A stretch of DNA of 64,000 bases from Arthrobacter sp. MYb213. Lineage in GTDB: Bacteria; Actinomycetota; Actinomycetes; Actinomycetales; Micrococcaceae. A program made the translations under genes and the position numbers. Below are positions 4,886 to 27,766 of this stretch, in pieces (within the stretch, counting starts at the first letter, position 1; each line of letters starts with the position of its first letter). Location of the stretch: the NCBI RefSeq assembly GCF_002979915.1, contig NZ_PCQA01000007.1:1-64000 (forward strand), written 5' to 3'. The notes beneath the pieces were generated by a model. That model worked only from the letters and a program-made list of their open reading frames with translations. It had not been told where the DNA came from and did not search any database.

Positions 4886-5626
4886 CTAACGCGCCATCAA
4901 TACGTCGCTAGGCCACGGTAACAAGGTGGGGAAATCGGCCGAATCCGCGGCCTGCGTGGCACGAACCACCCCGCCCACCGGCCGGCCGGACAACCAGGCG
5001 GCCAAATCAAAATCTGTTCCCTCTAATACCCACGATCGCTCGCCATCACCAATCACCTGACGCTGGCGGCCGTGGGGTTGCAATACGATGCGGTCCTCTG
5101 GCTTAACCCGAGCGGCCAGGGCACGCAGCAGATGGTCGGAAAATTCTTGCGGCCAGCTAGCGGCGGGGCGGATAAATTCGTTCAGGTCGGTGGCGTGGAT
5201 CAGCATTTCTCGCCAGACCGCGTAAACCATATCGGCCACCTTCGCTCCCGGACGATAGCCAACGGGCTCTTCGAAGTGCGCTTGCACGGTGCCTAGGGTA
5301 GCGCGTAGCTGGGCTAAGGAAGCGGTCACCAGTTCGCGGAGTTTTTCCGGCCGCATCAGCGCGGCCATATTGATTGCCTCGATTCGCCCGGCCGCTCCCC
5401 CGTCATACATCGGTGGGAGCTGCGCGGACCCGGCCTGCTCAAATTGCCGGTTTGCGGCCAGCGCGAGGGAATGTAGGTGCGCGACCAGTTGCGCGGTACT
5501 CCAGCCGGGCAACGAGCTGGGCTTGGCGAAATCCTCGTCAGCCAGGGTGGAAAGCTGCGCGACCAGTTCGTCCAAGGCGGTGGTCACATGTGCAATGAGT
5601 TGTTTCGGAGGCAGTTGAAGTGTCAT
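4886..5626 (-). CDS. DinB/maleylpyruvate isomerase-like family protein
   Basis: A 246-residue protein with the N-terminal helical bundle of the mycothiol-dependent maleylpyruvate isomerase / DinB superfamily: LPGWSTAQLVAHLHSLA near residues 42-58, with the metal-type histidine in the HLH context, and a second His in LIHATDLNEF near 150. Such actinobacterial proteins are metal- and mycothiol-associated enzymes of mostly unknown substrate. The ATG at 5624-5626 is preferred over an upstream frame because a TAGAGT -10 box ends 7 nt before it. It lies 91 nt upstream of apt on the same strand. Confidence 0.7.
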   Translation of the reverse strand: MTLQLPPKQLIAHVTTALDELVAQLSTLADEDFAKPSSLPGWSTAQLVAHLHSLALAANRQFEQAGSAQLPPMYDGGAAGRIEAINMAALMRPEKLRELVTASLAQLRATLGTVQAHFEEPVGYRPGAKVADMVYAVWREMLIHATDLNEFIRPAASWPQEFSDHLLRALAARVKPEDRIVLQPHGRQRQVIGDGERSWVLEGTDFDLAAWLSGRPVGGVVRATQAADSADFPTLLPWPSDVLMAR

Positions 5627-5633
5627 GGCACAC

Positions 5634-5639
5634 ACTCTA
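5634..5639 (-). promoter_or_regulatory. -10 box of DinB-like gene (leaderless candidate)
   Basis: TAGAGT on the minus strand, 7 nt before the ATG; no Shine-Dalgarno sequence is present. Confidence 0.45.
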
Positions 5640-5758
5640 GCGCGCACCGGTTCCCGTGCAGAAGTCCGGCACCCAGAACGCGCCGGGCGGCCGATCAACC
5701 ACGCGCAATGCGTAGCTAAGCGGCCGCCCGGGAAGCGGTTTATTTGTGCAGTGTCGCT

Positions 5759-7531
<1,773 letters not shown>

Positions 7532-8083
7532 ATGGAAATCCAGTTGTACCGCGGTGATATCACCACGTTGAACGTTGATGCCATCGTCAATGCAGCCAAT
7601 CCCTCGTTATTGGGTGGGGGCGGCGTCGACGGAGCTATTCATGCGGCGGCCGGGCCTGCCCTGCTAGCCGCCTGCCGTGCAGTTCGTGCGGCCAGGTACC
7701 CCGACGGAATCCCTTCAGGTATTGCGGTGGCGACGAAGGCCGGAAACCTTAGCGCCAAATGGGTCATCCATACCGCGGCGCCAAACCTCGCACTGATTAA
7801 ACCGAACCCGAAGATCTTGGCCGATTGTTTTAGCAATTCGCTCTATCTGGCGGCACGGCATGAGGCGCACTCCATCGCATTTCCTGCAGTGGGTGCCGGT
7901 GCGTTCGGCTGGCCTGCACAGACGGTCGCGCAAATTGGTTTTGACACCATTAGCGCATGGGTGGAAACGAATAAGCACGTTTCGCCAATCCGCCGCATCG
8001 TCATGGTCTCGCACACTGACGAAGTTCAAGAGGCCTTCGAAGAGGCCTTTGGGATGTCCTCGGTAGACCAGTTGGCCGCCTAG
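7532..8083 (+). CDS. Macrodomain protein, O-acetyl-ADP-ribose deacetylase-like
   Basis: A 183-residue single macrodomain of the YmdB/MacroD type: GDIT near residue 7, the catalytic-loop motif VDAIVNAANPSLLGGGGVDGAIH (17-39; Asn and Asp of the NAAN...GGGVD type), and a second phosphate loop in AVGAGAFGWP near 117-126. Family members hydrolyse O-acetyl-ADP-ribose or remove ADP-ribose from proteins. The ATG at 7532 is supported by GGAGG at 7520-7524. It lies in the opposite direction inside the arg cluster, bounded by terminators. Confidence 0.88.
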   Translation: MEIQLYRGDITTLNVDAIVNAANPSLLGGGGVDGAIHAAAGPALLAACRAVRAARYPDGIPSGIAVATKAGNLSAKWVIHTAAPNLALIKPNPKILADCFSNSLYLAARHEAHSIAFPAVGAGAFGWPAQTVAQIGFDTISAWVETNKHVSPIRRIVMVSHTDEVQEAFEEAFGMSSVDQLAA

Positions 8084-8110
8084 CACCAAGAGCCCAACCC
8101 GCTAAGAACA

Positions 8111-8150
8111 AAATTACCCGTCACCACTCCTGTGCGATGACGGGTAATTT
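8111..8150. terminator. Macrodomain gene terminator
   Basis: Perfect 13-nt inverted repeat (8111-8123 and 8138-8150) with a 14-nt loop, 27 nt after the macrodomain stop and ending in TTT. It could also act on the opposing argR transcript. Confidence 0.75.
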
Positions 8151-8213
8151 CATTTCTCACGAGGTGTGCTGTGCACCGCGGATGCGCCGGTGTCATAACT
8201 GATTAACGCAGCA

Positions 8214-8245
8214 CGCCACCGCGGGTGAAAACCCTTTCGGTGGCG
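8214..8245 (-). terminator. Probable arg operon terminator
   Basis: CGCCACCG / CGGTGGCG stem (8214-8221 and 8238-8245), 54 nt past the argR stop. The T tract on the minus strand is poor. Confidence 0.45.
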
Positions 8246-8298
8246 CGTTACTCGTGCATGAAATTTGTGCGGTGCTGCGCTTTGCGTGTTGGGCCAGG

Positions 8299-8802
8299 TT
8301 AGCGCGGTTCGGCCAGCTGCAAAAAGCGGCTAGCTACCTGGCTGGCCCCATCGGCGGCGCGGGTGATCACCATAATCGTGTCATCGCCCGCGATACAGCC
8401 AAGAATCGCGGGAATCTGCGAGTGGTCGATGGCCAGCGCCAGCAGGTTCGCGGCCCCCGGCGGGGTGCGCAGAACAACGATATTTGCCGAGCCCTCTGCG
8501 GTCACCAACTGCTCCTGACAGATTTTAGCCAGACGCGCGTCGAGCACCTCCTGGGTGATGGCGGTCTGCGGGGAACGATCCCCGCCCTCTTGACGGATCG
8601 CATAAATCAGTTGGCCCAGATGGTCGCGGATGCGCACGGCTCCGATCTCCACTAAATCGCGGGAGAGCGTTGCCTGGGTGACTTCCAACCCGTCATCTTT
8701 GAGCAAGCCAAGCAGTTCTGCCTGAGATTTAACCGAATTATTGCCCAAGAACGCACGGATCCGGGCTTGGCGCGCTGTTTTGGTGCTTGGCTGTGCCGAC
8801 AT
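8299..8802 (-). CDS. argR: Arginine repressor
   Basis: Arginine-responsive hexameric repressor/activator of arginine genes. Its 167 residues show the N-terminal winged helix (ATLSRDLVEIGAVRI, near 42-56) and the C-terminal arginine-binding core with GDDTIMVI near 137-144. The argF stop and the argR ATG abut as TAAATG, so the genes are translationally linked. It is the last gene of the argCJBDFR operon and probably acts on the ATGCAT boxes at argC and argH. Confidence 0.95.
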   Translation of the reverse strand: MSAQPSTKTARQARIRAFLGNNSVKSQAELLGLLKDDGLEVTQATLSRDLVEIGAVRIRDHLGQLIYAIRQEGGDRSPQTAITQEVLDARLAKICQEQLVTAEGSANIVVLRTPPGAANLLALAIDHSQIPAILGCIAGDDTIMVITRAADGASQVASRFLQLAEPR

Positions 8803-9762
8803 TTAGAGCTCCACTCGGGGATCGTGTGCCAGACCGGAAGCGACCATCAGCCAGGTCATGATGGCCTTCTGCGCGTGAACCCGGTTCTCGGCCTCATCAA
8901 ACACCACCGACTGTGGGCCGTCGAGCACCTCGGCGGAAATCTCGTAGCCACGGTAGGCCGGCAGGCAGTGCAGGACGATCGCGTCGTCCTTGGCAAGCTT
9001 CATCGCCTCGGCGTCCACCGCGTAATCCACGAAGAGCTTCTGCCGCGCTGCCTTCTCATCTTCCTGACCCATGGAAACCCAGGTGTCGGTGACGACCACG
9101 TCGGCATCCTGCAGCGCCTGCGCCGCATCGGTGGTGATGACCACCGAGCCGCCGGTTTCTTCGGCACGGATCTGGGCTGCGGCAATGATCTCGGCCGATG
9201 GCAGGTAGCCTTCAGGGCCGGCGATGCGTACGTGCATGCCGGCGGTGACCCCGGCGAGCAGGTAGGAGTTGGCCATATTGTTGGCCGAGTCGCCCAGGTA
9301 GACCATGGTCAGACCCGCGGTTTTGCCCTTGTGCTCACGCACGGTCAGCAGGTCCGCCAGTAGCTGGCAGGGGTGGTAATCATCAGATAGCGCGTTAATC
9401 ACCGGCACCGCCGAATTCGCTGCCATCTCTTCGAGCCCGGACTGAGCGTAGGTGCGCCATACGATGGTGGACACCATGCGCGCCAACACCTGAGCGGAAT
9501 CGGCGATGGTCTCCTTGTGCCCCAGCTGCGAATCGGTGGAGTTGATGATCAGCGGTGAGCCGCCCAACTCGGCAATCCCCGCGTGGAAGGAAACGCGAGT
9601 ACGCGTAGAGGTTTTGTCGAAGAAGACCGCGACGGTTTGCGGGCCCGCGTAGGGTGCGAAGCCGTATTTGTCGGCCTTCATCGCTGCGGCGAGGTCCAAA
9701 ACTTTGGACTGCTCTGCCGGGCTCAGATCAAGGTCGGTGAGGAAGTGGCGGGTAAGACTCAT
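8803..9762 (-). CDS. argF: Ornithine carbamoyltransferase
   Basis: Makes citrulline from ornithine and carbamoyl phosphate. The 319 residues contain the carbamoyl-phosphate site STRTR (52-56), HPCQLLAD (about 130-137) and the ornithine-site HCLPA near 268. It is in the arg operon, 50 nt after argD and directly before argR. Confidence 0.97.
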   Translation of the reverse strand: MSLTRHFLTDLDLSPAEQSKVLDLAAAMKADKYGFAPYAGPQTVAVFFDKTSTRTRVSFHAGIAELGGSPLIINSTDSQLGHKETIADSAQVLARMVSTIVWRTYAQSGLEEMAANSAVPVINALSDDYHPCQLLADLLTVREHKGKTAGLTMVYLGDSANNMANSYLLAGVTAGMHVRIAGPEGYLPSAEIIAAAQIRAEETGGSVVITTDAAQALQDADVVVTDTWVSMGQEDEKAARQKLFVDYAVDAEAMKLAKDDAIVLHCLPAYRGYEISAEVLDGPQSVVFDEAENRVHAQKAIMTWLMVASGLAHDPRVEL

Positions 9763-12006: not shown

Positions 12007-13206
12007 CTAGCTGGAGTAGGCGGAGTTTTCGTGGACGTAGTCGTGGGTCAGGTCGTTGGTCAAGATGGTGGCCTGTGCGGATCCGGCGTTCAGATCAATG
12101 TCGATCGAGACGTTGCGGTCCTCTAGCGAGACCAGCGAACGGTCCTCGCCGACACCACCGTTTTTGCAGACCATCACCGAGTTGATCGAGACGTTCAGTT
12201 CATCGGGTTCAAAGGCCGCACGCGTGGTGCCGACCTCGGAGAGCACCCGGCCCCAGTTCGGGTCCTTGCCGAAGATCGCGGTTTTCACCAGGTTCGAGCG
12301 GGAGACCGCGCGGGATACCTCTAGCGCGTCGGCCTCGGTAGCAGCATTAAAGGTCCGCACCGCAATGGTGTGCTGTGCACCCTCCGCGTCGTCGATGAGC
12401 TTGGCCGCCAATTCCTGGCACATATCTGCCAGTGCGGCGGTGAACTCTTCGGTGTCCGGGGTGATCCCGGAGGCGCCGGAGGACATCAGCAGCACCGTGT
12501 CGTTGGTGGACATGCAGCCATCTGAGTCTGCCCGATCAAAGCTGACCGCGGTGGCTGCGCGCAATGCCGCATCAAGCTGTGCGGCGTCGAGCACCGCATC
12601 AGTGGTCAGCACCACCAGCATCGTGGCCAGCGCCGGGGCGAGCATGCCCGCACCCTTCGCCATGCCGCCCAAGGTGTACCCGCCCACGGCGCGCGAGGCA
12701 ATTTTTGGCACGGTGTCGGTGGTCATGATGCCGGCCGCCGCCTGATCGGAGGCGTCCTGACCACCGGCGAGCGCGGTTGCTGCGTGATCCACCCCGGCCA
12801 GTAGCTTGTCCATCGGCAGTTGTTCGCCGATGAGCCCGGTGGAGGCTACTGCCACGTCACCGGAGGAAATGTTCAAAAGTCCGGCAACGTGCTCCGCGGT
12901 GCGGTGCGTGTTGGCAAAGCCTTCGGCTCCGGTGCAGGCGTTGGCGCCGCCGGAGTTCAACACGATCGCGTCCACTCGGCCGTCGGTGATCACCTGTTTG
13001 GACCAGTGCACCGGGGCTGCCGCCACGCGGTTGGCGGTGAAGACCGCGGCCGCCGTGTAGTTCGGGCCCTGGTTGGTCACCAGCACCACGTCGTTTTTGC
13101 CCGTGGATTTCAGGCCCGCTGGCACGCCTGCGGCGCTAAATCCTGCCGGTGCGGTGACTCCGGCTAGTTCGGCCTGCTCAAAGGTTGGGGTGTGGGTGAG
13201 GCTCAC
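12007..13206 (-). CDS. argJ: Bifunctional glutamate N-acetyltransferase / acetyltransferase ArgJ
   Basis: ArgJ recycles the acetyl group from N-acetylornithine to glutamate and, in bifunctional forms, also uses acetyl-CoA. The precursor self-cleaves before a threonine, seen here in [11 protein letters not shown] near residue 193. A longer frame is open upstream to 13404, but the real start is GTG at 13204-13206. That GTG overlaps the argC stop as GTGA and gives 399 residues, the normal length; the upstream 66 residues are arginine-rich and are a shadow of argC. Confidence 0.95.
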
Positions 13207-14234
13207 GGTGCGACTCCTTGCATTAACAATCCGGTGGTTTCGGGTAGCCCGAGTGCGATGTTCATCGATTGCACGGCGGCGCCGGCGGTGCCCTTGGTGA
13301 GGTTGTCCAGCGCGGCGGTGACGATCACGCGTCCGGCGTGCTCGTCGAACGCTAATTGCATGTGCACGTGGTTTGAGGCTTGCACCGCGCCGGTGGTAGG
13401 CCACTGCCCCTCGGGCAATAGGTGCACAAATGGTTCGTTGGCGTAGGCCGATGCCCAGGCATCGCGCAATTGGTCGGCGCTAACCCCGGCCTTTACCAGT
13501 GCGGTGGCGGTGGTCAGGATGCCGCGCGGCATCGGCGCCAGCGTCGGGGTGAAGGACACGGTGACCGCCTCGCCGGCCAGCTTGGAAAGGCCCTGTTCCA
13601 TTTCGGGAATGTGGCGGTGCACGCCGCCGACCCCATAGGTGCTCATCGAGCCCATGGTTTCGCTGCCCAGCAGGTGGGTTTTGGCGCTTTTGCCTGCGCC
13701 GGAGGTGCCGGAGGCGGAAACGATGACTACGTCTTGTGGCTCAAGTAGCCCGGCGTGGTAACCCGGTGCCAGGGCTAGTTGGCCGCCGGTGGGGTAACAA
13801 CCGGGTACGGCGACGCGTTTGGCGCCGGCAAGTTTCTCGCGTGTACCGGGAAGTTCAGGCAGTCCGTAGGGCCAGGATCCGGCGTGTGGTGAGCCGTAGA
13901 ATTTTTCCCAGGCGCTCGCCGATTCCAGGCGGTGGTCCGCACCGGCGTCAATGACCAGGGTGGATTCGGGCAGGGCCGCTGCCACCGCTGCGCTCGCGCC
14001 GTGCGGTAGAGCCAGAAAGACCACGTCGTGTCCGGCGAGGTTTTCCACGGTGGTTTCCACCAGTACCCGATCGGCCAGGGAGTGCAGGTGCGGGGCGATG
14101 CCGCCTAGTCGCAATCCGGCTTGGGAATGCGCGGTGATCGCACCAATCTCTACCTCTGGGTGATTGGCTAAAATTCTAAGGACTTCGCCTCCGGCGTATC
14201 CGCTGGCGCCGGAGACAGCAACTGAAATCGTCAT
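13203..14234 (-). CDS. argC: N-acetyl-gamma-glutamyl-phosphate reductase
   Basis: NADPH-dependent reductase for the third step of arginine synthesis. The 343 residues include the N-terminal GASGYAGGE nucleotide-binding loop (9-17) and the catalytic cysteine in VPGCYPTG near 146. It is the first gene of the operon. A TAGAGT -10 box ends 6 nt before the ATG, so the transcript is probably leaderless, and two ARG-box-like palindromes overlap the promoter. Confidence 0.97.
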
Positions 14235-14281: not shown

Positions 14282-14404
14282 AAATTGTTCGTCATTTCAT
14301 GCTAGCTCGGGGTTGTCGCTCATCGCACTCACACCCGCCACGCTTAGACTGGAAATAGGCAACGGCCAGCAACTGGCAAGGGACAAAGATTGGAAGCGCA
14401 TCGT

Positions 14405-15373
14405 ATGAATCAGCAGAGCATACTCGTCTCCCACGCAGGTGGACCCGAAGTGATGGAACTCGGTGTTACTCCCGTCCAGACCCCGGGCGAGGGCCAGGTC
14501 TTGGTGAAGATCGAAGCGATCGGCGTGAACTTCATCGAAACCTACCAACGCTCCGGCGTCTACGCGGTGGACTACCCCTTCACCCCGGGAACCGAATTTT
14601 CTGGCACCGTGACCGAGCTCGGCAAAAACGTGCGTCACCTGAAGGTCGGGGACCGTGTGGCGACCTCCAGCGGCACCAAGGGCTACGCGCAATTTGCGGT
14701 GGTCGACGAAAACCAACTGGGCAAGGTGCCTGACAACGTCGATCTGCGCCTCGCCGCCGCGCTGCCGTTGCAGGGCATGACCTCGCACTACCTGACGCAT
14801 TCGAGCTATCTGGTCCGTTCGGGCGACGTCATCCTCACCTACGCCGGCGCCGGCGGAGTGGGCCTATTACTGACGCAGATCCTGAAGATGAAGGGCGCGA
14901 CGGTGATCACCACCGCCTCCACCCAAGAAAAGAAGGACTTGGCGCGTGCCGCCGGAGCAGATTACGTGGTGGCTTACGACCAGGTCGAGGCCACCGTTGA
15001 CCAGGTCACCGACGGCCAGGGCGTGCATGCGGTCTACGACGGCATCGGCAAAGACACCTTCGACACTTCGCTGAAGGTACTCAAGCGTCGCGGCACACTT
15101 GCACTCTTTGGTGGAGCCAGCGGCCAGGTGCCACCCTTTGACCTACAGCGCTTAAACGCGGGTGGGTCCTTGACCGTCACCCGCCCGAAGCTCGCAGACT
15201 TCCTAGCCACCGACGAGGAACGCGCCTGGCGTTTTGGCGACGTGTTCGGCTGGGTGGCTTCCGGTGAGCTTGATATTCGGGTGGGCCAACAGTTCGCGCT
15301 CAAAGACGCGGACCAGGCGCATCGGGCCTTGGAATCGCGACAGACCACCGGCAAGGTGCTCCTTGTTCCCTAA
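14405..15373 (+). CDS. Zinc-free quinone oxidoreductase (MDR family)
   Basis: A 322-residue NADPH:quinone reductase-like member of the medium-chain dehydrogenase/reductase family. The N-terminal GroES-like part carries GVNFIETYQRSGVY near 42-55 and lacks the zinc-binding cysteines. The nucleotide loop AGAGGVGLLLTQ is near 146-157. The ATG at 14405 has GGAAG at 14391-14395; an in-frame TTG 15 nt upstream is less likely. It is transcribed divergently from argC and convergently with the DUF5129 gene. Confidence 0.9.
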   Translation: MNQQSILVSHAGGPEVMELGVTPVQTPGEGQVLVKIEAIGVNFIETYQRSGVYAVDYPFTPGTEFSGTVTELGKNVRHLKVGDRVATSSGTKGYAQFAVVDENQLGKVPDNVDLRLAAALPLQGMTSHYLTHSSYLVRSGDVILTYAGAGGVGLLLTQILKMKGATVITTASTQEKKDLARAAGADYVVAYDQVEATVDQVTDGQGVHAVYDGIGKDTFDTSLKVLKRRGTLALFGGASGQVPPFDLQRLNAGGSLTVTRPKLADFLATDEERAWRFGDVFGWVASGELDIRVGQQFALKDADQAHRALESRQTTGKVLLVP

Positions 15374-15480: not shown

Positions 15481-17028
15481 TTAGAAGTGCGAGGAGCCTC
15501 CGGCGCCGGAGAAACTACCCCCACCGGAGTAGCCCTGAGAAACACCCGAAGCGCCACCGGATGAGCGTGAGCTATCCACCGAACTGACCGCTTGGCTATA
15601 CCCGGTGTTGTAGGAACCCACGGACCAATACATCGCCGCCGGGTAGCTGACATCCAAAATTGTGCCGACCGCGCGCGGACTTTGATTCGTTGCGTCATGG
15701 CGTGAGCGATTGAGCTCCGTGCGCATTTCTTCCTCCTCTTCCGGGCTCGTCGCATAGGTCAAGATTTGTGCGTTGGCCAAAGCATCAAGTTTTTCGGTCA
15801 GTTGCACACGCAAATCCGAAAGCGCATCAAGCGCGTCATCAACCGCAATACTTTCACCGCTCAGCTCATCGCCCAGGCGTTGCAACTGCGTACGGGCTTG
15901 AGCCGCGAAGGAATTTAGCGCGGCCGCGCTGGCTCGAACCTCTTCGCTGCTTGCCTGGTCGGTGACAAAATTCTCGGTCAGTTCGGGCAACGCATTGAGG
16001 TCTTCAAGTAGCGGGGCGATCTGCCTGCGCCAGGCAGCTTCCCAGTTCGCATCGCGGGTATAGAGCGATGCTGCATCGATGATCGCGTCGTCGGTCAAAT
16101 CCAGAGTTTGCGCGGTGGACAAGAAATCTTTAGCCCGCAGTACTCCGACACTGCGTGAACGCAGCTTTTTCGTCGCCGCCTCCAACTCTTGGCGCTCACT
16201 AAACACCGTGCGGTAATCGGCGCTGAAGTCGGAGAAGCGGCTAGCCAGTACGGTTGCGTGCGCGGCGTCGGCCGGGAGCGTGCGCGCTGCAAGCTCGGTA
16301 GTATCCAGGTCCAGCGTGACCCGGGTCAGGTGTTCGGTGCCCTCGGCGAGCGCTTGGCTAAAACGTGTGCGATTGTGTGCGCGTACCGCGGCGGTGATCC
16401 CCACCGTGCCCAGCGCCCCGAGTCCGCCAAGTCCCACGGTCCACCCCAGTGCCGGATGCTGATACCAAGGGCGATTCATGATTTTGGACCCGCGCTCGGC
16501 GACCGCGATCACCCCGTCAGACCAGCGCCCAGCGTTAAAATCCTCGTAGCCGGCCTCATGAATGGCCCCCATCTGCCCCTCGGAGACCTTACGATCCTCG
16601 CCGAAGTAGGTGCCGATCTGCCCGTCTCCTTGGCCCTCCACCGACAGGGTAATAATGAAGTAGCCATCGGCCCAGTAATCGCCATAGTCGTCGGGCTTAT
16701 CCGAAATCCATTCACGGTGGCTACTGCGCGCAAAATCTAGGGTGTTCGTGTTGATGTCATCGGAATATTCTCCGTTGCGCGAATATACGGCCACCTTGGT
16801 CGGCTCATTAAAGTCCAGACGTTCGATCGCGTCGCGCAATTTGTCCTCGTTGAGCACATTTGCGGTGTCATCAACGCTGATCGATTCCAGATTCTCCGGC
16901 TCGGCCGCGGCAGCATAGGCTCCGGGGATGATGCTGGCCATCAGCAACGTGGCGGCAAATCCTGCAGCCATGGTGCGACGGATCGGCCTCGCAACTTTGC
17001 TCAAGCCTGTTGGGTGGGGCTGATGCAT
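15481..17028 (-). CDS. Exported TPM-domain / DUF5129 protein
   Basis: From the ATG at 17026-17028 (GGAGG at 17037-17041) the product has 515 residues. It has an N-terminal signal peptide (about 18-42, ending near AYAAAAEP), then a TPM-like domain (about 45-185: TKVAVYSRNGEYSD and IITLSVEGQGDGQIGTYFG). One membrane helix follows near 195-215 (GWTVGLGGLGALGTVGITAAV), then a long helical region, and the tail is rich in Gly and Ser ending in SSHF. TPM proteins occur in envelope or membrane maintenance; the function here is unknown. It is divergent from the Pls-like synthetase gene. Confidence 0.75.
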   Translation of the reverse strand: MHQPHPTGLSKVARPIRRTMAAGFAATLLMASIIPGAYAAAAEPENLESISVDDTANVLNEDKLRDAIERLDFNEPTKVAVYSRNGEYSDDINTNTLDFARSSHREWISDKPDDYGDYWADGYFIITLSVEGQGDGQIGTYFGEDRKVSEGQMGAIHEAGYEDFNAGRWSDGVIAVAERGSKIMNRPWYQHPALGWTVGLGGLGALGTVGITAAVRAHNRTRFSQALAEGTEHLTRVTLDLDTTELAARTLPADAAHATVLASRFSDFSADYRTVFSERQELEAATKKLRSRSVGVLRAKDFLSTAQTLDLTDDAIIDAASLYTRDANWEAAWRRQIAPLLEDLNALPELTENFVTDQASSEEVRASAAALNSFAAQARTQLQRLGDELSGESIAVDDALDALSDLRVQLTEKLDALANAQILTYATSPEEEEEMRTELNRSRHDATNQSPRAVGTILDVSYPAAMYWSVGSYNTGYSQAVSSVDSSRSSGGASGVSQGYSGGGSFSGAGGSSHF

Positions 17029-17384
17029 GGAAAATTCCTCCAGAGGGGTGTCGAGATTTATTCCGATCGATGCGCTTATCATTTAGCCTACTAGGTGCTT
17101 ACGCCGCCGCGCATCCCCACCCAGCTGCGCGCACTGCCCCCACCGGGAAGAATTGAGCCGACCATGGTGAGTCCGCGCAGCGACACTAGTGTTGTGATCC
17201 ATACGACCAAAAGTGCCCAATGCTTCCCCGTGACCGCTTTCAGGGGCTTTAATAGGTGCAGGACGTCGCAACGTCCGATCCCCTCCAGGATCCATACCCC
17301 TTTTTTATGCGAGCCCGTATCCCCCACGAACTCGCAGCCCACTGGTGCACCCCACCCGTAGCGAAGGGACGGATCCGCCCGCTT
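17029..17384. other. Divergent DUF5129 / pls-like intergenic region
   Basis: 356 nt. The minus-strand ribosome binding site and promoter of the DUF5129 gene are at its left. On the plus strand there is a GGACGT/ACGTCC hairpin (17261-17276, CGCA loop), a GATCC/GGATC hairpin (17277-17292) and a T6 run (17301-17306). These could be a leader attenuator for the synthetase gene. A TTTAAT -10 candidate is at 17248-17253. Confidence 0.35.
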
Positions 17385-20300
17385 ATGGACTCCGTAGATA
17401 GTTCCACCCCCGAGAATTCGTCCATCTACCCGGCGCAGTTTCCGGCCGGTTCGCTGGCCCCAGCGCCACGGACGCTGATCGACATTGTGCAGGCCACCGC
17501 CAAGGCCCATCCCGACGCGCCGGCCATTGACGACGGCGCACGCATCGAAAGTTACGCCGAGCTGATCGACGAGGTTAAGACCAAGGCACTACGCCTACAT
17601 CAGTCGGGCCTCGGCGCCGGGGACCGGATCGGCGTGCGCGTCACCTCCGGGACCGCCGCGCTCTACGAATGGATCCTGGCGATCCTCTGGGTGGGTGCCG
17701 CCTACGTGCCGGTGGACGCCGACGATCCCGACGAGCGCGCCAAAACCGTGTTTGACGAGGCCCAAGTGGCCGGTTTCATCTCCGGCACCGATCAGCTGAC
17801 CGTGATCGACCCGAACCGTCCGGCCCCCTTCCGCAACCCACGCGCCCCACAACTTGGCGACGACGCGTGGATCATCTTCACTTCCGGCTCCACCGGCAAA
17901 CCCAAGGGTGTTGCGGTCACGCACCGCTCCGCGGCGGCCTTTGTGGACGCCGAGGCGCAAATGTTCTTACCCAACGACCCGCTGAACACTAGCGACCGGG
18001 TGCTTGCCGGACTATCGGTGGCCTTTGACGCCTCCTGCGAGGAAATGTGGATCGCCTGGCGCAACGGCTCCTGCCTGGTCCCGGCCCCGCGCGCCCTGGT
18101 CCGCAGCGGCATGGACTTAGGCCCCTGGCTGATCTCCCGTTCGATCACCGCGGTGTCCACCGTGCCCACATTGGCCGCGCTGTGGCCGGCCCAAGCACTA
18201 GATTCGGTACGTTTGTTGATCTTCGGCGGGGAGGCTTGCCCTCCAGAACTTGCCGCCCGTCTGGCCACCGACAGTCGCGAACTGTGGAACACCTACGGGC
18301 CGACCGAGGCGACCGTGGTAGCGTGCGGGGCCACCATGGACGGCAGCTTACCGGTGCGCATCGGATTGCCGCTGGCCGGCTGGGACCTGGCGGTAGTGGA
18401 CCCCGAAGGTATCCCGGTGCCCGAGGGTCAATCCGGTGAGCTGATCATTGGCGGCGTGGGACTGGCCCGCTACTTAGATCCGGATAAAGACGCAGAAAAG
18501 TATGCGCCGATGCCCACCCTGGGTTGGGAACGCGCTTACCGCTCAGGCGATATGGTGATCAACGACCCGCTGGGGTTGGTGTTCATCGGGCGCGTGGATG
18601 ACCAGGTGAAAATCGGCGGGCGACGCATTGAACTGGGCGAAATTGATGCCGCCCTCGCCTCACTAGAGAGTGTGTCCAGCGCCGCCGTCGCGGTACGCGA
18701 AACAAACACCGGCAACAAGATTTTGGTCGGCTATCTGGCTGCGGACCCGGACTACGACCTGAACGCGGCACGCACCGCACTGCTCGAAGATTTACCGGCG
18801 GCGATGGTGCCACTGCTCACTCTGGTGGAGACCATGCCGATGAAAACCAGTGGCAAGGTGGATCGTAATGCCTTGCCCTGGCCGTTGGCAGGCGCCGGCG
18901 AAGACACCGGCGAGCAACTGAGCGGCTTAGATACGACCGGGCAGTTTGTGGCAGATGCGTGGAAGGGTGCGTTAGGCGCGGCGGTATCCAGCGCGGACGC
19001 CGACTTCTTCGGCTCCGGCGGCGGATCGTTGTCTGCCGCGCAGTTGGTCTCCGCGTTGCGCTACCGCTACCCGGATCTGACCGTCGCCGAACTCTACGAC
19101 TATCCGCGCTTCGGCGCGCTGGTCACCTACCTTGGCGGTAAGCCGGTCAACGACGAGGTGATCGAACCTCGCATCGTTAAACGCACTAAACGCAGTACCC
19201 AGATCATCCAGTCGCTGCTGGCGGTGCCACTATTTATCCTTTCCGGGTTGCGCTGGTTCACCTACCTCATGCTGGGGCACTGGTTCTTGCTCAGCGTGGG
19301 AATTTTTGATGCGCCGCTGCCGATCCCGTGGTATTTGCTACTGGCCTCGTGGCTGATTTTTGTTACCCCGCCCGGGCGCATGTTGCTCTCGGTGGTAGCA
19401 GCGAAACTGCTGCTGCGTGGCCTGACACCGGGCACCTACCGACGCTCCGGGGCGATGCACCTGCGGCTCTGGTTGGCTCAACACATCGCTGACGTGGTCG
19501 ATCCGGTCTCGCTGGCCAGCGCACCACTGCTGCCCTGGTATGCGCGGATGCTCGGCGCGAACATCGACAAAACCGCTGCCGTGCACACCCTGCCACCGGT
19601 CACCGGAATGCTCACCGTGGGCCCCGGGGCGGCCCTAGAGCCCGAGGTTGATGTCTCCGGTTACTGGATCGACGGAGACCTGGTGCACGTCGGACACATC
19701 ACCGTGGGCGATTTCGCCTCCGTCGGCGCGCGTTCCACGCTGACTCCGGGCGCAATCGTTGCGCCGCACACCATTGTGGAAGCCGGCTCGGCGATCTACG
19801 GCGAAACCCGGGAAAACTCCCGCTATGCAGGCTCCCCGGCCACTCGTGCAGGGCGCGCTAAACCGCGCTGGCCCGAACAAGTTCCCGCTTACCGGGTGCT
19901 GCCGCGAGTACTCGGCGGAATCGGCTCGCTGGTGCTGAACCTGGCCCAGTGGATCCCCGTGGTCCTCGCGGTGCTCGCCGTGAGCCCGCTACTGGACGGT
20001 GACAAGTCGCTGAGCAACATTGGGCTGAGCTTCATTCCCGCCGTGTTGCTGGCGGCGCTGGTCTGGTTCTTCTCGATGATGTTGCTGGTCATTATTCAGG
20101 TGCGGCTCTTATCCATTGGGCTGCGTGAAGGTTGGCATCCGATCACCTCGCGGGTGGGCTGGCAGGCCTGGGCCACCGAACGCGTGCTCGATACCGCACG
20201 CGATGTGCTGTTCCCGCTCTACGCGTCGCTGTTCACCCCGATCTGGTTGCGCCTGCTCGGTGCGAAGGTCGGGCGCGATGTGGAAATTTCGACGGTACTG

Positions 20301-21305
20301 CTGATCCCGAAGATGACCACCATCGCCTCGGGCGCTTTTCTGGCCGATGACACCATGGTCGCCTCCTACGAGCTGGGCGGCGGATGGATGCACATCGCCC
20401 CGGTACGCGTAGGCAAAAAAGCCTTCCTGGGGAACTCCGGCATCCTGCATGCCGGACGCCGGGTGCCCAAGCGCTCGCTGATCGCCGTACTTTCAGCCAC
20501 CCCACGCAAGATGAAGGCCGGTACCTCGTGGATCGGCTCTCCCCCGCATAAGCTGCGGCGCACCACCGTGGATGCCGAATCCGAGCGCACCTACAGCCCG
20601 CCGATGAAGCTGAAGGTGATGCGCGCACTGTGGGAGTTGACCCGCGCGCTAGCCGTGTTCACCACCGTGGGGATCGCGGCAGCCGTGTTGTGGGCGCTGT
20701 CCGCATTGACCAGCTACGGCCATCCGCTCACCGCGGCGCTGCTCTCCGGGGCGGTGCTGGTGGCAGCCGGGGCGGTGGCCGCGCTGACCGCGCTGGCCGC
20801 CAAATGGCTGGTGGTCGGGGTGATCCGCCCGGGCGAGCACACGCTATGGAGCTCGTTCATCTGGCGCACCGAGATGGTGGACTCATTTGTCGAACTGGTC
20901 TGCGCCCAGTGGTTTGCGCGCCTAGCCTCCGGCACCCCGGCACTAGTCTGGTTCCTGCGTGCGCAAGGCGCCAAGATCGGACACGGGGTGTGGTGCGAAA
21001 GTTACTGGTTCCCGGAGGCTGACCTGGTCACCTTGGAGGATCATGCCACGGTGAACCGCGGTTGCGTGCTGCAAACCCACCTCTTCCACGACCGCATCAT
21101 GTCCATCGACACGGTTACCCTAGGTGCGGGCGCAACGCTTGGCCCGCACAGCGTGATCCTGCCCGCCGCGATCATTTCCGAGGGCACCACCGCCGGGCCG
21201 GCCTCGCTGATCCTGCGCGGTGAGCAACTGCCGGCCAATACCTACTGGCGCGGCAATCCGGCGGTACGCTGGAACATCACCACCGATCAGCCAGTGAAAG
21301 CCTAG
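17385..21305 (+). CDS. Pls-type membrane nonribosomal peptide synthetase (poly-amino-acid synthetase-like)
   Basis: From the ATG at 17385 the protein has 1306 residues. Domains in order: an adenylation domain (about 25-515; A3 FTSGSTGKPKG near 165, A5 NTYGPTEA near 302, A7 YRSGDM, A8 GRVDDQVKIGGRRIELGE, A10 TSGKVDRNALP); a peptidyl carrier domain (about 525-590) with the phosphopantetheine serine in GGGSLSA near 547; then membrane helices in pairs near 606-675, 849-908 and 1088-1144, each followed by a soluble domain. At least the first and last soluble domains show hexapeptide-like repeats. This matches the epsilon-poly-L-lysine synthetase Pls, which polymerises one amino acid without ordinary condensation domains. 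No condensation, thioesterase or second adenylation domain is present. The hand-aligned specificity code is DAESIGTVVK, suggesting a basic substrate. No clear ribosome binding site fixes the start. The product is unknown. Confidence 0.85.
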   Translation: MDSVDSSTPENSSIYPAQFPAGSLAPAPRTLIDIVQATAKAHPDAPAIDDGARIESYAELIDEVKTKALRLHQSGLGAGDRIGVRVTSGTAALYEWILAILWVGAAYVPVDADDPDERAKTVFDEAQVAGFISGTDQLTVIDPNRPAPFRNPRAPQLGDDAWIIFTSGSTGKPKGVAVTHRSAAAFVDAEAQMFLPNDPLNTSDRVLAGLSVAFDASCEEMWIAWRNGSCLVPAPRALVRSGMDLGPWLISRSITAVSTVPTLAALWPAQALDSVRLLIFGGEACPPELAARLATDSRELWNTYGPTEATVVACGATMDGSLPVRIGLPLAGWDLAVVDPEGIPVPEGQSGELIIGGVGLARYLDPDKDAEKYAPMPTLGWERAYRSGDMVINDPLGLVFIGRVDDQVKIGGRRIELGEIDAALASLESVSSAAVAVRETNTGNKILVGYLAADPDYDLNAARTALLEDLPAAMVPLLTLVETMPMKTSGKVDRNALPWPLAGAGEDTGEQLSGLDTTGQFVADAWKGALGAAVSSADADFFGSGGGSLSAAQLVSALRYRYPDLTVAELYDYPRFGALVTYLGGKPVNDEVIEPRIVKRTKRSTQIIQSLLAVPLFILSGLRWFTYLMLGHWFLLSVGIFDAPLPIPWYLLLASWLIFVTPPGRMLLSVVAAKLLLRGLTPGTYRRSGAMHLRLWLAQHIADVVDPVSLASAPLLPWYARMLGANIDKTAAVHTLPPVTGMLTVGPGAALEPEVDVSGYWIDGDLVHVGHITVGDFASVGARSTLTPGAIVAPHTIVEAGSAIYGETRENSRYAGSPATRAGRAKPRWPEQVPAYRVLPRVLGGIGSLVLNLAQWIPVVLAVLAVSPLLDGDKSLSNIGLSFIPAVLLAALVWFFSMMLLVIIQVRLLSIGLREGWHPITSRVGWQAWATERVLDTARDVLFPLYASLFTPIWLRLLGAKVGRDVEISTVLLIPKMTTIASGAFLADDTMVASYELGGGWMHIAPVRVGKKAFLGNSGILHAGRRVPKRSLIAVLSATPRKMKAGTSWIGSPPHKLRRTTVDAESERTYSPPMKLKVMRALWELTRALAVFTTVGIAAAVLWALSALTSYGHPLTAALLSGAVLVAAGAVAALTALAAKWLVVGVIRPGEHTLWSSFIWRTEMVDSFVELVCAQWFARLASGTPALVWFLRAQGAKIGHGVWCESYWFPEADLVTLEDHATVNRGCVLQTHLFHDRIMSIDTVTLGAGATLGPHSVILPAAIISEGTTAGPASLILRGEQLPANTYWRGNPAVRWNITTDQPVKA

Positions 21306-21318
21306 AGGACCGCACCGC

Positions 21319-22620
21319 ATGCCGCAGCAGCTAGATGACTACACCAAACACCACGGCTCCGAGCAGTACACCGTGGAGCACTACGACCTAGAGCTCAAGT
21401 GCAAGCTGGCCAGCAACCTGCTCGAGGGCAAGGCCGTACTGCATATCCGCGCGCTGGTCGACCTGGATGTGGTGCGGCTAAACCTGCATGGCTTGCGCGT
21501 ACTCAAGGCCACCTGCCAGGGCAAAAAGCTGGCGGTCGCCAAAAGGCACCACCGCATCGAGGTGAAACTTCCTGCAATGCTTCCCGCCGGCGAACAGTTG
21601 GAACTGGCGCTGCGCTATGCCGGAAACCCGGGGGTGGATGACGGGATGTGGGGCGAGGTCGGCTGGGAGGAACTGACCGACGGGGTACTAATTTCCGGTC
21701 AACCCACCGGGGCGGCCACCTGGTTCCCTTGCAACGATCACCCCAGCCACAAATCCAGCTACCGTTTTTCGATCACCACCGATGCCGGCTACCGGGCGGT
21801 GGCCAACGGCGAACAGGTCGGCTATTCCCGGGCCGCGAGCGCCGATACCTGGGTCTACGAACAGCGTGAGCCGATCGCCAGTTATCTAGCCACCGTGCAG
21901 ATCGGACGCTACAGCGAAATCCCCTTTGATAGCCAACGCCACCTGCTGGCCTACGCGGTGCCCGGCATGGATTTAGCGGTGCGCGGTGCCTTTGCCAAAC
22001 AGGGCGAGATGGCCGAGGTTTTTGAACGGCACTTTGGCCCCTACCCGTACGCCAGCTACAAGATTGTGGTGGTGGACGACGAGCTAGAAATCCCGTTGGA
22101 GGCCGCGGGGCTGAGCATTTTTGGGCGCAATCACCTGTCCTTGGACTGGGAGGCGCAACGGCTGATCGCCCACGAATTTTCGCATCAGTGGTGGGGCAAT
22201 TCGCTGACCTTAAAGCGCTGGAGCGATATCTGGTTGCATGAGGGGTTCGCCTGCTTCAGCGAATGGTTGTACTCCGAATCTGCCGGGTTGCTCTCGCTGG
22301 CCGATCGGGCCCGAGCGGCGTGGGAGAAGCTAAACGAGTCCGCGCAGGATCTGGCTATCGGGGCCCCGGGGGCCGAGCAAATGTTCGATGACCGGGTATA
22401 TAAACGCGGCGCGCTAGCGCTGTTCGCGTTACGCGGTGCGCTGGGTCCCGAAACCTTCTACGCGATGCTCAAAGACTGGGTTGCCACCTATGCCCACGGG
22501 CATGTGGACACCGCCGCGTTCCTCGCGCACGCCCAGGGGTTCGCGCCCGACACACTGGATGTCGCCGCGCTTCTAGATCCTTGGCTTTACGAACAAGCGC
22601 TGCCGGCCTTCCCGCACTAG
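21319..22620 (+). CDS. M1-family zinc aminopeptidase
   Basis: A 433-residue gluzincin. The zinc site is complete: HEFSH followed by 18 residues and Glu (HEXXH-X18-E, near residues 286-309, in the context HEFSHQWWGN ... LHEGFACF). The probable catalytic Tyr is in VYKRGAL near 359. The usual GXMEN substrate motif reads PLEAAGLS here, which is unusual. It is short: the large C-terminal helical domain of ERAP/PepN-type enzymes is missing, and there is no signal peptide. It starts 13 nt after the synthetase stop, with AGAGGA as ribosome binding site, so the two are co-expressed. The enzyme that degrades epsilon-polylysine in Streptomyces is also an HEXXH-X18-E aminopeptidase, so a product-trimming or self-protection role is plausible. 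Confidence 0.88.
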   Translation: MPQQLDDYTKHHGSEQYTVEHYDLELKCKLASNLLEGKAVLHIRALVDLDVVRLNLHGLRVLKATCQGKKLAVAKRHHRIEVKLPAMLPAGEQLELALRYAGNPGVDDGMWGEVGWEELTDGVLISGQPTGAATWFPCNDHPSHKSSYRFSITTDAGYRAVANGEQVGYSRAASADTWVYEQREPIASYLATVQIGRYSEIPFDSQRHLLAYAVPGMDLAVRGAFAKQGEMAEVFERHFGPYPYASYKIVVVDDELEIPLEAAGLSIFGRNHLSLDWEAQRLIAHEFSHQWWGNSLTLKRWSDIWLHEGFACFSEWLYSESAGLLSLADRARAAWEKLNESAQDLAIGAPGAEQMFDDRVYKRGALALFALRGALGPETFYAMLKDWVATYAHGHVDTAAFLAHAQGFAPDTLDVAALLDPWLYEQALPAFPH

Positions 22621-22734
22621 CTCGCTGCGTATCGCGGACACCACCGGGGACCACGTGGCGTAGGCCATAGGTCATAAACGCGGTACTCAATGAGCGGTTG
22701 GCCAATTATTCACCAGCTGTTCACCTGGCAAAAC

Positions 22735-22740
22735 TAGGCT
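22735..22740 (+). promoter_or_regulatory. -10 box of ppk2 (leaderless candidate)
   Basis: TAGGCT ending 6 nt before the ATG at 22747; no Shine-Dalgarno sequence is present. This suggests PPK2 can be expressed independently of the synthetase. Confidence 0.35.
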
Positions 22741-22746
22741 GAAGCC

Positions 22747-23643
22747 ATGACGGTTGAACTCCCCCTGCTTGAAGATGCGTTTCGCGGCTACTCCGTGCTA
22801 GACAACGACGATGATGACCCGGTGCTGGTGCGCGCTGACGGATCCATCGTGGACACCTGGCGCGAGGACTACCCCTACGACGCCAAAATGGAACGGGCGA
22901 CCTACGATACGCAAAAGCGTGCGTTGCAAATCGAACTACTGAAGCTCCAAAAGTGGCTCAAGGCGCACGATCGGCGGTTGATGATCGTCTTCGAGGGACG
23001 CGACGCGGCCTGCAAAGGCGGCACGATCAAACGTTTCACCGAGCATCTGAACCCGCGCGGGGCACGCGTCGTCGCCCTAGAAAAGCCGACCGAACGCGAA
23101 TCCACCCAGTGGTATTACCAGCGCTACATCGAACATTTCCCGGCCGCCGGGGAGATCGTGCTCTTTGACAGGTCCTGGTACAACCGCGCCGGGGTGGAGC
23201 GGGCGATGGGTTTCTGCAGTGAAAATCAGGTTGAGCACTTTTTGGAGCAGACTCCACACTTTGAACGGCTGCTCGTAGAAGAGGGCATTGACCTGGTGAA
23301 GTTCTGGTTCTCCGTCTCCGCCGCCGAACAGTTCACTCGTTTCCTCATTCGCCGCATCGACCCGGTGCGCCAGTGGAAGCTCTCCCCCATGGACCTGGCC
23401 TCGCTGGACAAGTGGGATGACTACACGGCCGCGAAAAAACAGATGTTCCTGAAGACCGACACCGAGCATGCCCCGTGGACGGTGGTGAAGTCCAACGACA
23501 AGAAGCGCGCCCGGCTGCAGGCCATGCGCCACGTGCTGAACCTCTTCGAGTACAAGGGCAAGGACCACGAGCTGGTGGGCACCCCCGATCCGCAGATCGT
23601 TGGGCGAGCTGCAAACGTCATCAGCCACGGTGAAGAGTTCTAA
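22747..23643 (+). CDS. ppk2: Polyphosphate kinase 2 family protein
   Basis: Single-domain PPK2 of 298 residues that transfers phosphate between polyphosphate and nucleotides; class I enzymes mainly make ATP or GTP from polyphosphate. Walker A is FEGRDAACKGGT near 80-91, Walker B FDRSWYNRAGVE near 140-151, and the lid region is RRIDPVRQWKLSPMD near 203-217. It lies 126 nt after the aminopeptidase on the same strand. A role in supplying ATP to the upstream synthetase is only an inference from position. Confidence 0.92.
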   Translation: MTVELPLLEDAFRGYSVLDNDDDDPVLVRADGSIVDTWREDYPYDAKMERATYDTQKRALQIELLKLQKWLKAHDRRLMIVFEGRDAACKGGTIKRFTEHLNPRGARVVALEKPTERESTQWYYQRYIEHFPAAGEIVLFDRSWYNRAGVERAMGFCSENQVEHFLEQTPHFERLLVEEGIDLVKFWFSVSAAEQFTRFLIRRIDPVRQWKLSPMDLASLDKWDDYTAAKKQMFLKTDTEHAPWTVVKSNDKKRARLQAMRHVLNLFEYKGKDHELVGTPDPQIVGRAANVISHGEEF

Positions 23644-25225: not shown

Positions 25226-27766
25226 TTAGCGCTGGGTAGCGCCAAACTTTTCGGCCGCCAAGGCTACCGCGGCGGCACGCGCCTCGGAGGCTTCATCGGC
25301 GGTCAGCGTGCGATCCTCGGCGCGGAAGCGCAACCCGAAGGCCAACGACTTCTTGCCCTCTTCGATGCCCTGCCCCTGGTATACATCGAACAAGGTGATG
25401 TCTTCGAGCAGTGCGCCGGCACCCTCGCGCAGGGTGTCAAGCACATGACCTGCGACGACGTGTTGATCGACGACCAAGGCGACATCCTGGGTGGCCAGCG
25501 GCTGAGTAGACAGCGACTGCGCCACCACTACCTGCGGCGCGGCGGCCATCATCGCGGCAGCGTTCAGCTCCATCGCCACGGTGCGCGGCGGCAGATCGGC
25601 GTCCTTGAGCAACGCCGGGTGCAGCTCGCCAGCGTAGCCAACCACTTCGCCAGCAACCTTCAGCGTCGCGGCGCGGCCCGGGTGGAAGGCCTGGTGATCG
25701 CCCTGAGCGACCTCCAGCTGAACACCCAGGATGTCCGCGACGGTGCGTGCGGCGTCCAAAGCATCGGCCCAGTCCCACAGACGCGGCGCAAATCCGGCGG
25801 CGGCCGAAGCCTCATGGCCGGTGAAGACCGCGGCCAGCTGCCATGGCTGGTGGGGAACCCCGTGATACAGGTCCGCCAGCACCTCATCGCTTGGCTTGAC
25901 GCCCAACGGAGGAAGGAATGCCGAGCCCAACTGCTCGCCCGGCAAGAACACCAGACCACCCTCGTACAAGGCCAAATCGCGGAAACCACGGCCGATATTG
26001 CGTCGTGCGGTGTCCAGCAGACCCGGCAGCAGGCTGGTGCGCAGGAAACGGAACTCCTTGGAGATCGGGTTGGCCAGCGACACGGCTTTCACCGTGCTGC
26101 CAGCTTCCGGGGTGCCGAAGGTGTTGTTCTGCGCCTCGGAAACGAACGGGTAGGTCAAGACCTCGGTCAGGCCAGCATCGGCAAGGCCCTGCAACAGGCG
26201 TCGGCGCTGGGACTGGGTCCGGGTCAGGCCACGTCCTGGTGGGGCCACCGGCAAGGTTGCCGGGATCTGGTCATAGCCAACCACGCGGGCTACTTCCTCA
26301 ACCAGGTCTTCCTCAATCTCTAGGTCCGGGCGCCAGCTTGGAGCCGAAACCATGAAGCCCTCGGCGTTTTGCTCGACGGTTGCGCCGATGCCCCCAAGCG
26401 CGGTGATGGTCTGCTCGTCGGTATATTCCACGCCGATCAGTGCCCCGGCGAAACCGGCAGGCAGCTGAATCTGGGTGTCGGCCGGAACCATGCCTGCGTC
26501 GGTGACGTTGGCAGTCTCGGTGCCCCCGGCCAGCTCAACGAGCAGATTCACCGCACGCTGCGCGGCGATGTCCATAATGCGCGGGTCAACCCCGCGCTCA
26601 AAACGCTTGGAAGCCTCCGACGGCAGTTTGTGCCGGCGGCGGGATCGGCCGATGGATACTGCGTCAAAGTGTGCGGCCTCGATCAGCACGCGGCTGGTGG
26701 AATCGCTGACCTCGGTAGCCGCGCCACCCATGACGCCAGCAATACCCAAAGCACCGGACTCGTCGGTGATCAGCAGGTCCTCCACCGACAGCTCGCGGTT
26801 CTTCTCATCGAGCGTGGTGAGCTTTTCTCCGGCGGTAGCACGGCGCACGGTGATCGCACCGGTGAGCTTGTCCGCATCGTAGAAGTGCAGTGGTGCGCCG
26901 AGCTCAAGCATCACATAGTTGGAGATGTCGACAACCAGCGAGATCGAACGCATTCCTGCCAGTTGGAGGCGCGAGGCCATCCAGCGTGGGGTGGGCAGCG
27001 CCGGGTTGATGCCGGTGACTTCGCGAGTGACAAAACGCGTGCAGCCGGGCACATCGTAGATCGGTGCGTCGTCGGACAGCTTGACCTGGTGGCCGGCGCC
27101 GGTTGCCGCGGTGACCTTGATGGTGCTCGCCGGGTCGGTGAACGAGGTGCCGGTGGCTAGGCCGTATTCGCGGGCGACGCCGCGGATCGAGAAGCAGTAG
27201 CCGCGATCCGGGGTGACGTTGATTTCAGCGGCCTGATCGTTCAGCCCGAAAAGCTCAAACGCGTCGGTGCCCACCTCTGGGTCTAGCCCGAAGTTTGCCA
27301 GCACCATAATGCCGTCGTGGTCCTCGCCGATGCCCAGCTCGCGGGAGGAGGCGATCATGCCGGCTGAAACATGTCCGTAGGTTTTGCGTGGGGTGATCTT
27401 AAAATCTCCGGGCAGCACGGCGCCGGGCAGGGTGACTACAACCTTGTCACCCTCCACGAAGTTATGCGCGCCGCAGATGATGCCCTGCACGCCGTTGGGC
27501 TCGATGCCCTTGCCGGTCAGCGTCTGCTCGGTACCTTCGGGCACCACGCGGACCTGGCACCAGTTGATAGTTTTGCCGTTGGTCTGTTCTTCCTTCACCA
27601 ACGAGAGCACCTGACCGACGACGATCGGGCCCGAGAGGTTGTCGGAGGGACGGTGTACGTCCTCTTCCTCCAAACCGACCTTCACCAGATCGGCCATCAA
27701 ATCTTCGGCGCTTGCATCGGCCGGAAGCTGCGTGTATTCGCGCAGCCATGAAAGTGGAATACGCAT
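25226..27766 (-). CDS. pheT: Phenylalanine--tRNA ligase beta subunit
   Basis: Beta subunit of the alpha2-beta2 PheRS. The 846 residues contain the N-terminal EMAPII-like tRNA-binding domain (about 40-150), the B5 and B3/B4 editing regions (B3/B4 near 215-395, with GVMGGAATEVS near 337), the catalytic-like core, and a C-terminal ferredoxin-fold anticodon-binding domain (about 750-846). It starts 3 nt after the pheS stop. Confidence 0.97.
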   Translation of the reverse strand: MRIPLSWLREYTQLPADASAEDLMADLVKVGLEEEDVHRPSDNLSGPIVVGQVLSLVKEEQTNGKTINWCQVRVVPEGTEQTLTGKGIEPNGVQGIICGAHNFVEGDKVVVTLPGAVLPGDFKITPRKTYGHVSAGMIASSRELGIGEDHDGIMVLANFGLDPEVGTDAFELFGLNDQAAEINVTPDRGYCFSIRGVAREYGLATGTSFTDPASTIKVTAATGAGHQVKLSDDAPIYDVPGCTRFVTREVTGINPALPTPRWMASRLQLAGMRSISLVVDISNYVMLELGAPLHFYDADKLTGAITVRRATAGEKLTTLDEKNRELSVEDLLITDESGALGIAGVMGGAATEVSDSTSRVLIEAAHFDAVSIGRSRRRHKLPSEASKRFERGVDPRIMDIAAQRAVNLLVELAGGTETANVTDAGMVPADTQIQLPAGFAGALIGVEYTDEQTITALGGIGATVEQNAEGFMVSAPSWRPDLEIEEDLVEEVARVVGYDQIPATLPVAPPGRGLTRTQSQRRRLLQGLADAGLTEVLTYPFVSEAQNNTFGTPEAGSTVKAVSLANPISKEFRFLRTSLLPGLLDTARRNIGRGFRDLALYEGGLVFLPGEQLGSAFLPPLGVKPSDEVLADLYHGVPHQPWQLAAVFTGHEASAAAGFAPRLWDWADALDAARTVADILGVQLEVAQGDHQAFHPGRAATLKVAGEVVGYAGELHPALLKDADLPPRTVAMELNAAAMMAAAPQVVVAQSLSTQPLATQDVALVVDQHVVAGHVLDTLREGAGALLEDITLFDVYQGQGIEEGKKSLAFGLRFRAEDRTLTADEASEARAAAVALAAEKFGATQR

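Follow-up and report, generated by a model that had tools for sequence, protein, structure and literature searches.

A probable Glutamicibacter-type epsilon-poly-L-lysine synthetase gene coupled to a PldII-like peptidase gene, with an adjoining polyphosphate kinase 2 gene, in Arthrobacter sp. MYb213

The window analyzed here comprises the first 64,000 nucleotides of contig NZ_PCQA01000007.1 of Arthrobacter sp. MYb213 (assembly GCF_002979915.1). It carries three consecutive genes on the plus strand, two of which are very probably an epsilon-poly-L-lysine synthetase gene (pls) of the Glutamicibacter type and, coupled to it, the gene of a degrading, PldII-like M1 peptidase, as judged from protein sequences and a structural model; the third encodes a polyphosphate kinase 2 (PPK2). 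A previous sequence-only reading had described a synthetase of 1306 residues, an M1 aminopeptidase 13 nt later and a PPK2 in a row, and the open reading frames confirm this layout. The synthetase starts at an ATG at 17385, with the same frame open from a GTG at 17256. Its stop codon is abutted by a ribosome-site-like GAGGA (21305-21309) and lies 13 nt before the start of the M1 gene, and the gap between the M1 and PPK2 genes is 126 nt.

17385..21305, plus strand: pls-type synthetase, 1306 residues, with an adenylation (A) domain, a carrier (T) domain and three repeats of paired helices plus a beta-helix (TIGR02353, 628.9 bits against a cut-off of 423.1; best solved relative 7wew)
17490..18875, plus strand: adenylation domain with the pocket DAESIGTVVK (Pfam match at residues 36-362, other models to about residue 497)
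18945..19133, plus strand: carrier domain with a GGGSLS motif (PF00550, 35.9 bits; serine aligned)
19206..21263, plus strand: Pls/PosA C-terminal polymerization domain (TIGR02353, residues 608-1293; structural model)
19557..19859, plus strand: predicted left-handed beta-helix C1, limits approximate (strand pattern of the model)
20265..20555, plus strand: predicted left-handed beta-helix C2, limits approximate (secondary structure of the model)
20973..21269, plus strand: predicted left-handed beta-helix C3, limits approximate, including Gln1230 and His1232 (model and alignment)
21303..21318, plus strand: pls stop codon abutting the GAGGA stretch, followed by the M1 ATG at 21319 (sequence)
21319..22620, plus strand: M1 metallopeptidase, 433 residues, PldII-like by position, with HEFSH-X18-E (PF01433, 92.2 bits)
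22747..23643, plus strand: polyphosphate kinase 2, 298 residues, a possible third gene of the cassette (TIGR03707, 373.3 bits against a cut-off of 301.8; linkage)

The synthetase is assigned to the Pls/PosA family. The NCBI model of this family, TIGR02353, matches its C-terminal half with an E-value of 1.1e-188. Among solved structures, the closest is 7wew (E about 1e-182), which represents the adenylation domain of epsilon-poly-L-lysine synthase. A Pfam scan found one AMP-binding domain, one PP-binding domain (residues 521-583) and, at E <= 0.1, neither a condensation nor a thioesterase domain, which bears out the domain content proposed earlier; the Pls-type architecture proposed with it is likewise supported by the TIGR02353 score, the relation to 7wew, the predicted fold and the lysine-type pocket. 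The serine expected to bear phosphopantetheine is in place in the aligned carrier motif. The nearest named relatives of the protein in one scan were Glutamicibacter and Arthrobacter records, the best being Glutamicibacter ardleyensis (92% over residues 1-1306).

The structure prediction suggested in the sequence-only reading for the three soluble domains was run as an AlphaFold2 model of the C-terminal half (m1dc13aacd5cd), built on 53 aligned proteins, with a mean predicted local distance difference test score (pLDDT) of 91.1 and a predicted TM-score (pTM) of 0.90. Three runs of short strands of the left-handed beta-helix type lie between pairs of membrane helices, so that three beta-helix domains are predicted for this half of the protein. 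All three helix pairs proposed earlier are present in the model, although a hydropathy scan leaves the second helix of the first pair under its threshold. The profile of the 53-protein alignment matched gamma-carbonic anhydrases and hexapeptide acyltransferases among PDB chains (best E 7.4e-11), and a Hexapep match at residues 771-804 reached only 22.8 bits, under the Pfam threshold of 27. The top Foldseek matches were LpxD, LpxA and acetyltransferases (50 rows shown); because their whole-model TM-scores are low (0.08-0.15), the fold assignment is based on the strand pattern and the profile matches. Gln1230 and His1232 in the third beta-helix are invariant in all 53 aligned proteins, from which we infer a possible catalytic role. 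The fold is not new, because an earlier model of PosA shows three beta-helices packed together with roughly threefold symmetry (PMC10522769).

The ten residues of the adenylation pocket (DAESIGTVVK), at positions that we assume to follow the PheA numbering, are identical in the window protein and the 7wew chain (10/10, read off the alignment). They are also identical in 68 of the 70 loci of the window's own synthetase clade, the other two lacking that part of the protein. The acids at pocket positions 1 and 3 of PosA are reported as essential, and position 2 is reported to track side-chain length, being Ala for lysine, Met for ornithine and Phe for diaminopropionate or diaminobutyrate (PMC10522769). 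The match with 7wew together with Ala at position 2 thus makes lysine the strongly predicted substrate of the A domain. Enzymes for other basic amino acids do exist in the Pls/PosA family (PMC10522769), and polymerization of ornithine, diaminobutyrate, diaminopropionate or beta-lysine by the window protein has to be weighed. We regard it as most improbable: the pocket agrees with the lysine enzyme at every position; the ornithine, diaminopropionate or diaminobutyrate, and beta-lysine enzymes carry Met, Phe or Gly at position 2 (PMC10522769); and different codes (DFECLSVVTK and DGESVSVVNK) are found in other clades of the same bacterial family. A non-lysine substrate was set aside in view of the lysine-type pocket.

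A second synthetase clade with a lysine-type pocket was found at 17 loci (L129, L131, L134-L139, L141, L143-L147 and L150-L152), with DAESIGTVIK in 14 and DAESIGTVVK in three. Its members share about 37-41% identity over the C-terminal half and have no directly adjoining M1 gene; at L137, L138, L141 and L143, an M1 of the window type lies 3.3-3.8 kb downstream.

The M1 protein has an intact zinc site, HEFSH followed by Glu after 18 residues, and HEXXH with the later Glu is kept in all 102 aligned M1 proteins, the window's included (only matches over 350 bits were aligned). It reads PLEAAGLS where GXMEN, which we take to be the motif of ordinary M1 enzymes, usually sits. Linkage of this gene to pls was followed in a sample of 149 genomes of the window's family, the synteny check that had been suggested for the pair. 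TIGR02353 exceeded its cut-off in 82 of the 149 genomes; besides the window, this gave 116 such places, all of which were retrieved and scanned along with it. The window's lysine clade comprises 70 loci, one per genome (68 full, one at a contig end and one decayed), and the M1 gene lies downstream on the same strand in all 70 (one copy decayed); the linked aminopeptidase noticed in the sequence-only reading thus belongs to a gene order fixed across the clade. This M1 type (E <= 1e-60) occurs in 75 of the 149 family genomes, each of which also has an over-cut-off synthetase. Of the 30 top-scoring M1 loci at the class level (246 genomes), 29, including the window's, have a Pls C-domain just upstream, and the fetched stretch of the other has none (flanks of only about 1.5 kb). 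Among 72 named loci, 60 have the M1 gene adjacent to pls, and the count rises to 62 at distances up to 1.6 kb.

The protein might instead be an ordinary peptide aminopeptidase that merely sits beside pls, as it does match Pfam M1 and general M1 models. Against this stand the adjacency at every clade locus, the failure to find this type of M1 (E <= 1e-60) in any of the 67 family genomes that lack an over-cut-off synthetase, and two separate long M1 aminopeptidases elsewhere in the genome. We consider it very unlikely, and an unrelated neighbor was set aside on the strength of the linkage across clade loci and family genomes.

The pair is read as the published pls-pldII arrangement for forming and shortening epsilon-polylysine, an antimicrobial polymer, and thus as a further example of a known system. 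In this reading, the A domain would adenylate L-lysine, the carrier serine would hold the activated lysine, and the membrane domain would attach it by an epsilon-amide bond to the polymer under construction, a step in which His1232 of the third beta-helix may play a part. The polymer would then leave the cell and be hydrolyzed by the M1 enzyme, for self-protection and limitation of chain length, as reported for Streptomyces albulus PldII (PMC9223678). PPK2 may help to restore the ATP used in lysine activation.

The pls-peptidase pair has been published in Streptomyces and Corynebacterium variabile (PMC8117764). Jiang et al. (2021, PMC8117764) described homologues of Pls that have a lysine-like pocket in coryneforms, Arthrobacter and Glutamicibacter among them. 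For the C. variabile gene, they demonstrated both an operon with the peptidase and the production of epsilon-polylysine, so that, for this type, the earlier statement that most such synthetases lack a known product no longer holds. These homologues from C. variabile and from cheese and skin Arthrobacter and Glutamicibacter resemble the window protein in bacterial group and lysine-like pocket; of them, a product is shown for C. variabile alone (PMC8117764). S. albulus Pls/PldII agrees with the window in domain order and in the peptidase gene directly downstream (PMC8117764, PMC9223678), as well as in the A-domain pocket. However, its pldII measures 1404 bp (about 467 residues, against 433 for the window M1, likened to PldII without a comparison of the sequences), the window has a PPK2 gene after the M1 gene, and the window's polymer is a prediction. 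PosA, the delta-poly-L-ornithine synthetase of Acinetobacter baumannii, shares the A-T-C1/C2/C3 architecture, but has the pocket DMEHNGTVSK and, as far as the cited part of the account goes, a single-gene operon without a peptidase partner (PMC10522769).

Several observations weigh against the assignment. A plain hydropathy scan found no hydrophobic leader or stretch in the M1 protein, although PldII is placed outside the membrane (PMC9223678). The GXMEN motif is present in none of the 102 aligned M1 proteins, which leaves activity open and would also fit a special substrate. Seven family genomes have a Pls-type synthetase without this M1 type, and no M1 was found at eight named Corynebacterium loci (the sequence of one of them runs only to the pls stop). 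Moreover, native C. variabile made no detectable polymer, and its gene gave polymer only in Streptomyces coelicolor and not in Corynebacterium glutamicum (PMC8117764).

The product of the third gene, which we take to be a class I PPK2, has a characteristic distribution. In the 149 family genomes, the 23 PPK2 matches that score highest (at least 463 bits, 70-100% identity) all adjoin pls. Two further pls loci, G029 and G144, have a broken copy each, which gives PPK2 at 25 of the 70 clade loci; the other 79 family genomes have no match above 430 bits. In a tree of 68 loci, PPK2 is present at 24, in 10 of 19 genera. The 24 pls-linked copies of sufficient length, including one from G144, group as a single clade apart from 17 others (ultrafast bootstrap, UFBoot, 83), namely 16 unlinked copies out of roughly 100 listed and one copy from locus L105; two broken fragments from L046 were left out for length. 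Since unlinked PPK2 genes can be as much as 68% identical, if over a shorter stretch, the linked type is set apart by score and tree and not by identity alone. On the synthetase tree, PPK2 presence requires seven changes, against a mean of 20.0 and a minimum of 14 after shuffling, and a single-gain model gives one gain and nine losses. Of eight genomes of the window's genus, four possess the complete set of three genes; the other four have no member of it, and their pheT-to-argC stretch lacks pls, M1 and PPK2. These four congeners keep only a PPK2 paralogue of about 30% identity, and the reading of PPK2 as a genus-wide housekeeping gene was set aside on this ground. In G144, stops interrupt both the synthetase and PPK2 and the M1 gene is split, while in G029, pls and M1 are open and PPK2 is broken.

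At named loci, PPK2 is present in all eight of the Glutamicibacter clade (four of these records being titled Arthrobacter sp.) and in six of eight from Corynebacterium, there in convergent order, and was found at none of the 56 others within fetched flanks of at most 6 kb. A control genus, that of G394, is inferred to be Corynebacterium because it shares this convergent order. The Pls domain is present in 77 and PPK2 in 97 of the 101 genomes sampled from it. Among the 75 with both, PPK2 lies within 15 kb downstream on the opposite strand in 66 (in 22 of these less than 300 bp from the domain match), at 15-30 kb in three, far off in one and on another contig in five. PPK2 is kept in 22 of the 24 control genomes without pls, and is therefore not dependent on pls there.

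Two readings of this association can be weighed: (i) the cassette has PPK2 as its dedicated third gene, which would regenerate ATP from ADP and polyphosphate for lysine activation while adenylate kinase handles AMP; (ii) PPK2 is a neighbor inherited with the pls block and has no joint function with it. The first is favored by the confinement of the best matches and the two broken copies to pls loci, the absence of comparable matches from the other 79 genomes, the single clade of linked copies, the all-or-none pattern among congeners and the joint decay in G144. In S. albulus, moreover, ATP limits polymer yield, and added polyphosphate kinases raise both polymer and ATP (PMC10012588, PMC10157215). 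Nevertheless, 45 of the 70 clade genomes have no PPK2 in the fetched stretch (two stretches covering less than 5 kb downstream). The nine losses, the open pls and M1 genes beside a broken PPK2 in G029, the lack of PPK2 at the 56 named loci, the identity reached by unlinked copies and the Corynebacterium control also speak against the first reading, and the 126-nt gap may hold a promoter of its own. We consider it less likely than not. The second reading, which we find somewhat the likelier outcome, draws on the control genus, where PPK2 is mostly near pls yet is kept without it, and on the patchy presence in the window's family. What it does not readily accommodate is that the linked type was not seen without pls in the 149 family genomes, while pls often occurs without PPK2, an asymmetry that hints at dependence, and that the same pair recurs in two orientations and two families.

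The pls-PPK2 association thus recurs in two arrangements, and joint function is unproven; a dedicated ATP-supply role is possible. The sequence-only reading had proposed that PPK2 could help supply ATP or reflect polyphosphate-polycation chemistry: the link proved real in the family but patchy, with no settled meaning. In our view, it is doubtful that the separate PPK2 lineage found solely next to pls-pldII in some Micrococcaceae-type bacteria serves as a dedicated ATP regenerator or balances polycation and polyphosphate. PPK2 is present beside the window pls but goes unmentioned in the cited part of the PMC8117764 account of coryneform Pls, and no description of PPK2 linked to pls was found in searches of an open-licence library of papers.

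The cassette occupies a conserved site, flanked in most clade loci with long enough flanks by argC and an oxidoreductase gene on one side and by pheT on the other.

13203..14234, minus strand: argC, left-hand border of the conserved site (synteny; name read from the sequence, without a family search)
14390-15373, plus strand: oxidoreductase-like gene beside argC (synteny)
25226..27766, minus strand: pheT, right-hand border of the conserved site (synteny; name read from the sequence, without a family search)

A further gene, presumably TPM (15481-17082, minus strand), has the oxidoreductase gene on one side and pls on the other in the window and at L133, but sits between PPK2 and pheT at L127 and L130; the cassette or this gene has thus moved within the genus. 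No clear further recurrent cassette gene was found near the clade loci, where mainly arg-region genes and shadow-like frames recurred; one opposite-strand neighbor group is present at 44 clade loci.

Other Pls-type genes were met in the survey. At L107 (7447-10590, minus strand), a Pls C-terminal domain is fused to tandem carrier domains without an adenylation domain, and the same type occurs at L092, L102, L103, L105, L108-L111, L117, L119, L120 and L124. Among 17 hand-picked loci (fragment L154 excluded), 13 have two to four carrier repeats by motif, with three found by Pfam in L107. An A-T protein and a TauD-type dioxygenase follow at 11 of the 17 loci, with an SbnB-like protein at 10 and an SbnA-like protein at seven (family models were run for L107 and, for SbnA, L117 only). 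This arrangement points to a split synthetase whose polymer would derive from diaminopropionate and may be hydroxylated. No protein of this type exceeded the cut-off in the window genome, and no description of it was found in literature listings. At L105, a PPK2 gene (5139-6251, minus strand) lies divergently 278 bp upstream of the carrier-repeat Pls protein (6529-9699, plus strand), a further PPK2/Pls-type pairing whose PPK2 groups with unlinked copies in the tree. The Pls/PosA domain exceeded the cut-off in 54 of 61 genomes of the family of G150, and also in the control C. glutamicum, which as an expression host gave no polymer (PMC8117764).

Firm counts are thereby added for the pls-pldII pair in this family, and Glutamicibacter offers a simple, non-filamentous test host. 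The role proposed for pls-linked PPK2 would be the natural counterpart of PPK2 engineering in S. albulus; if the link is functional, these cells would themselves have solved the ATP limit that engineers met in that species.

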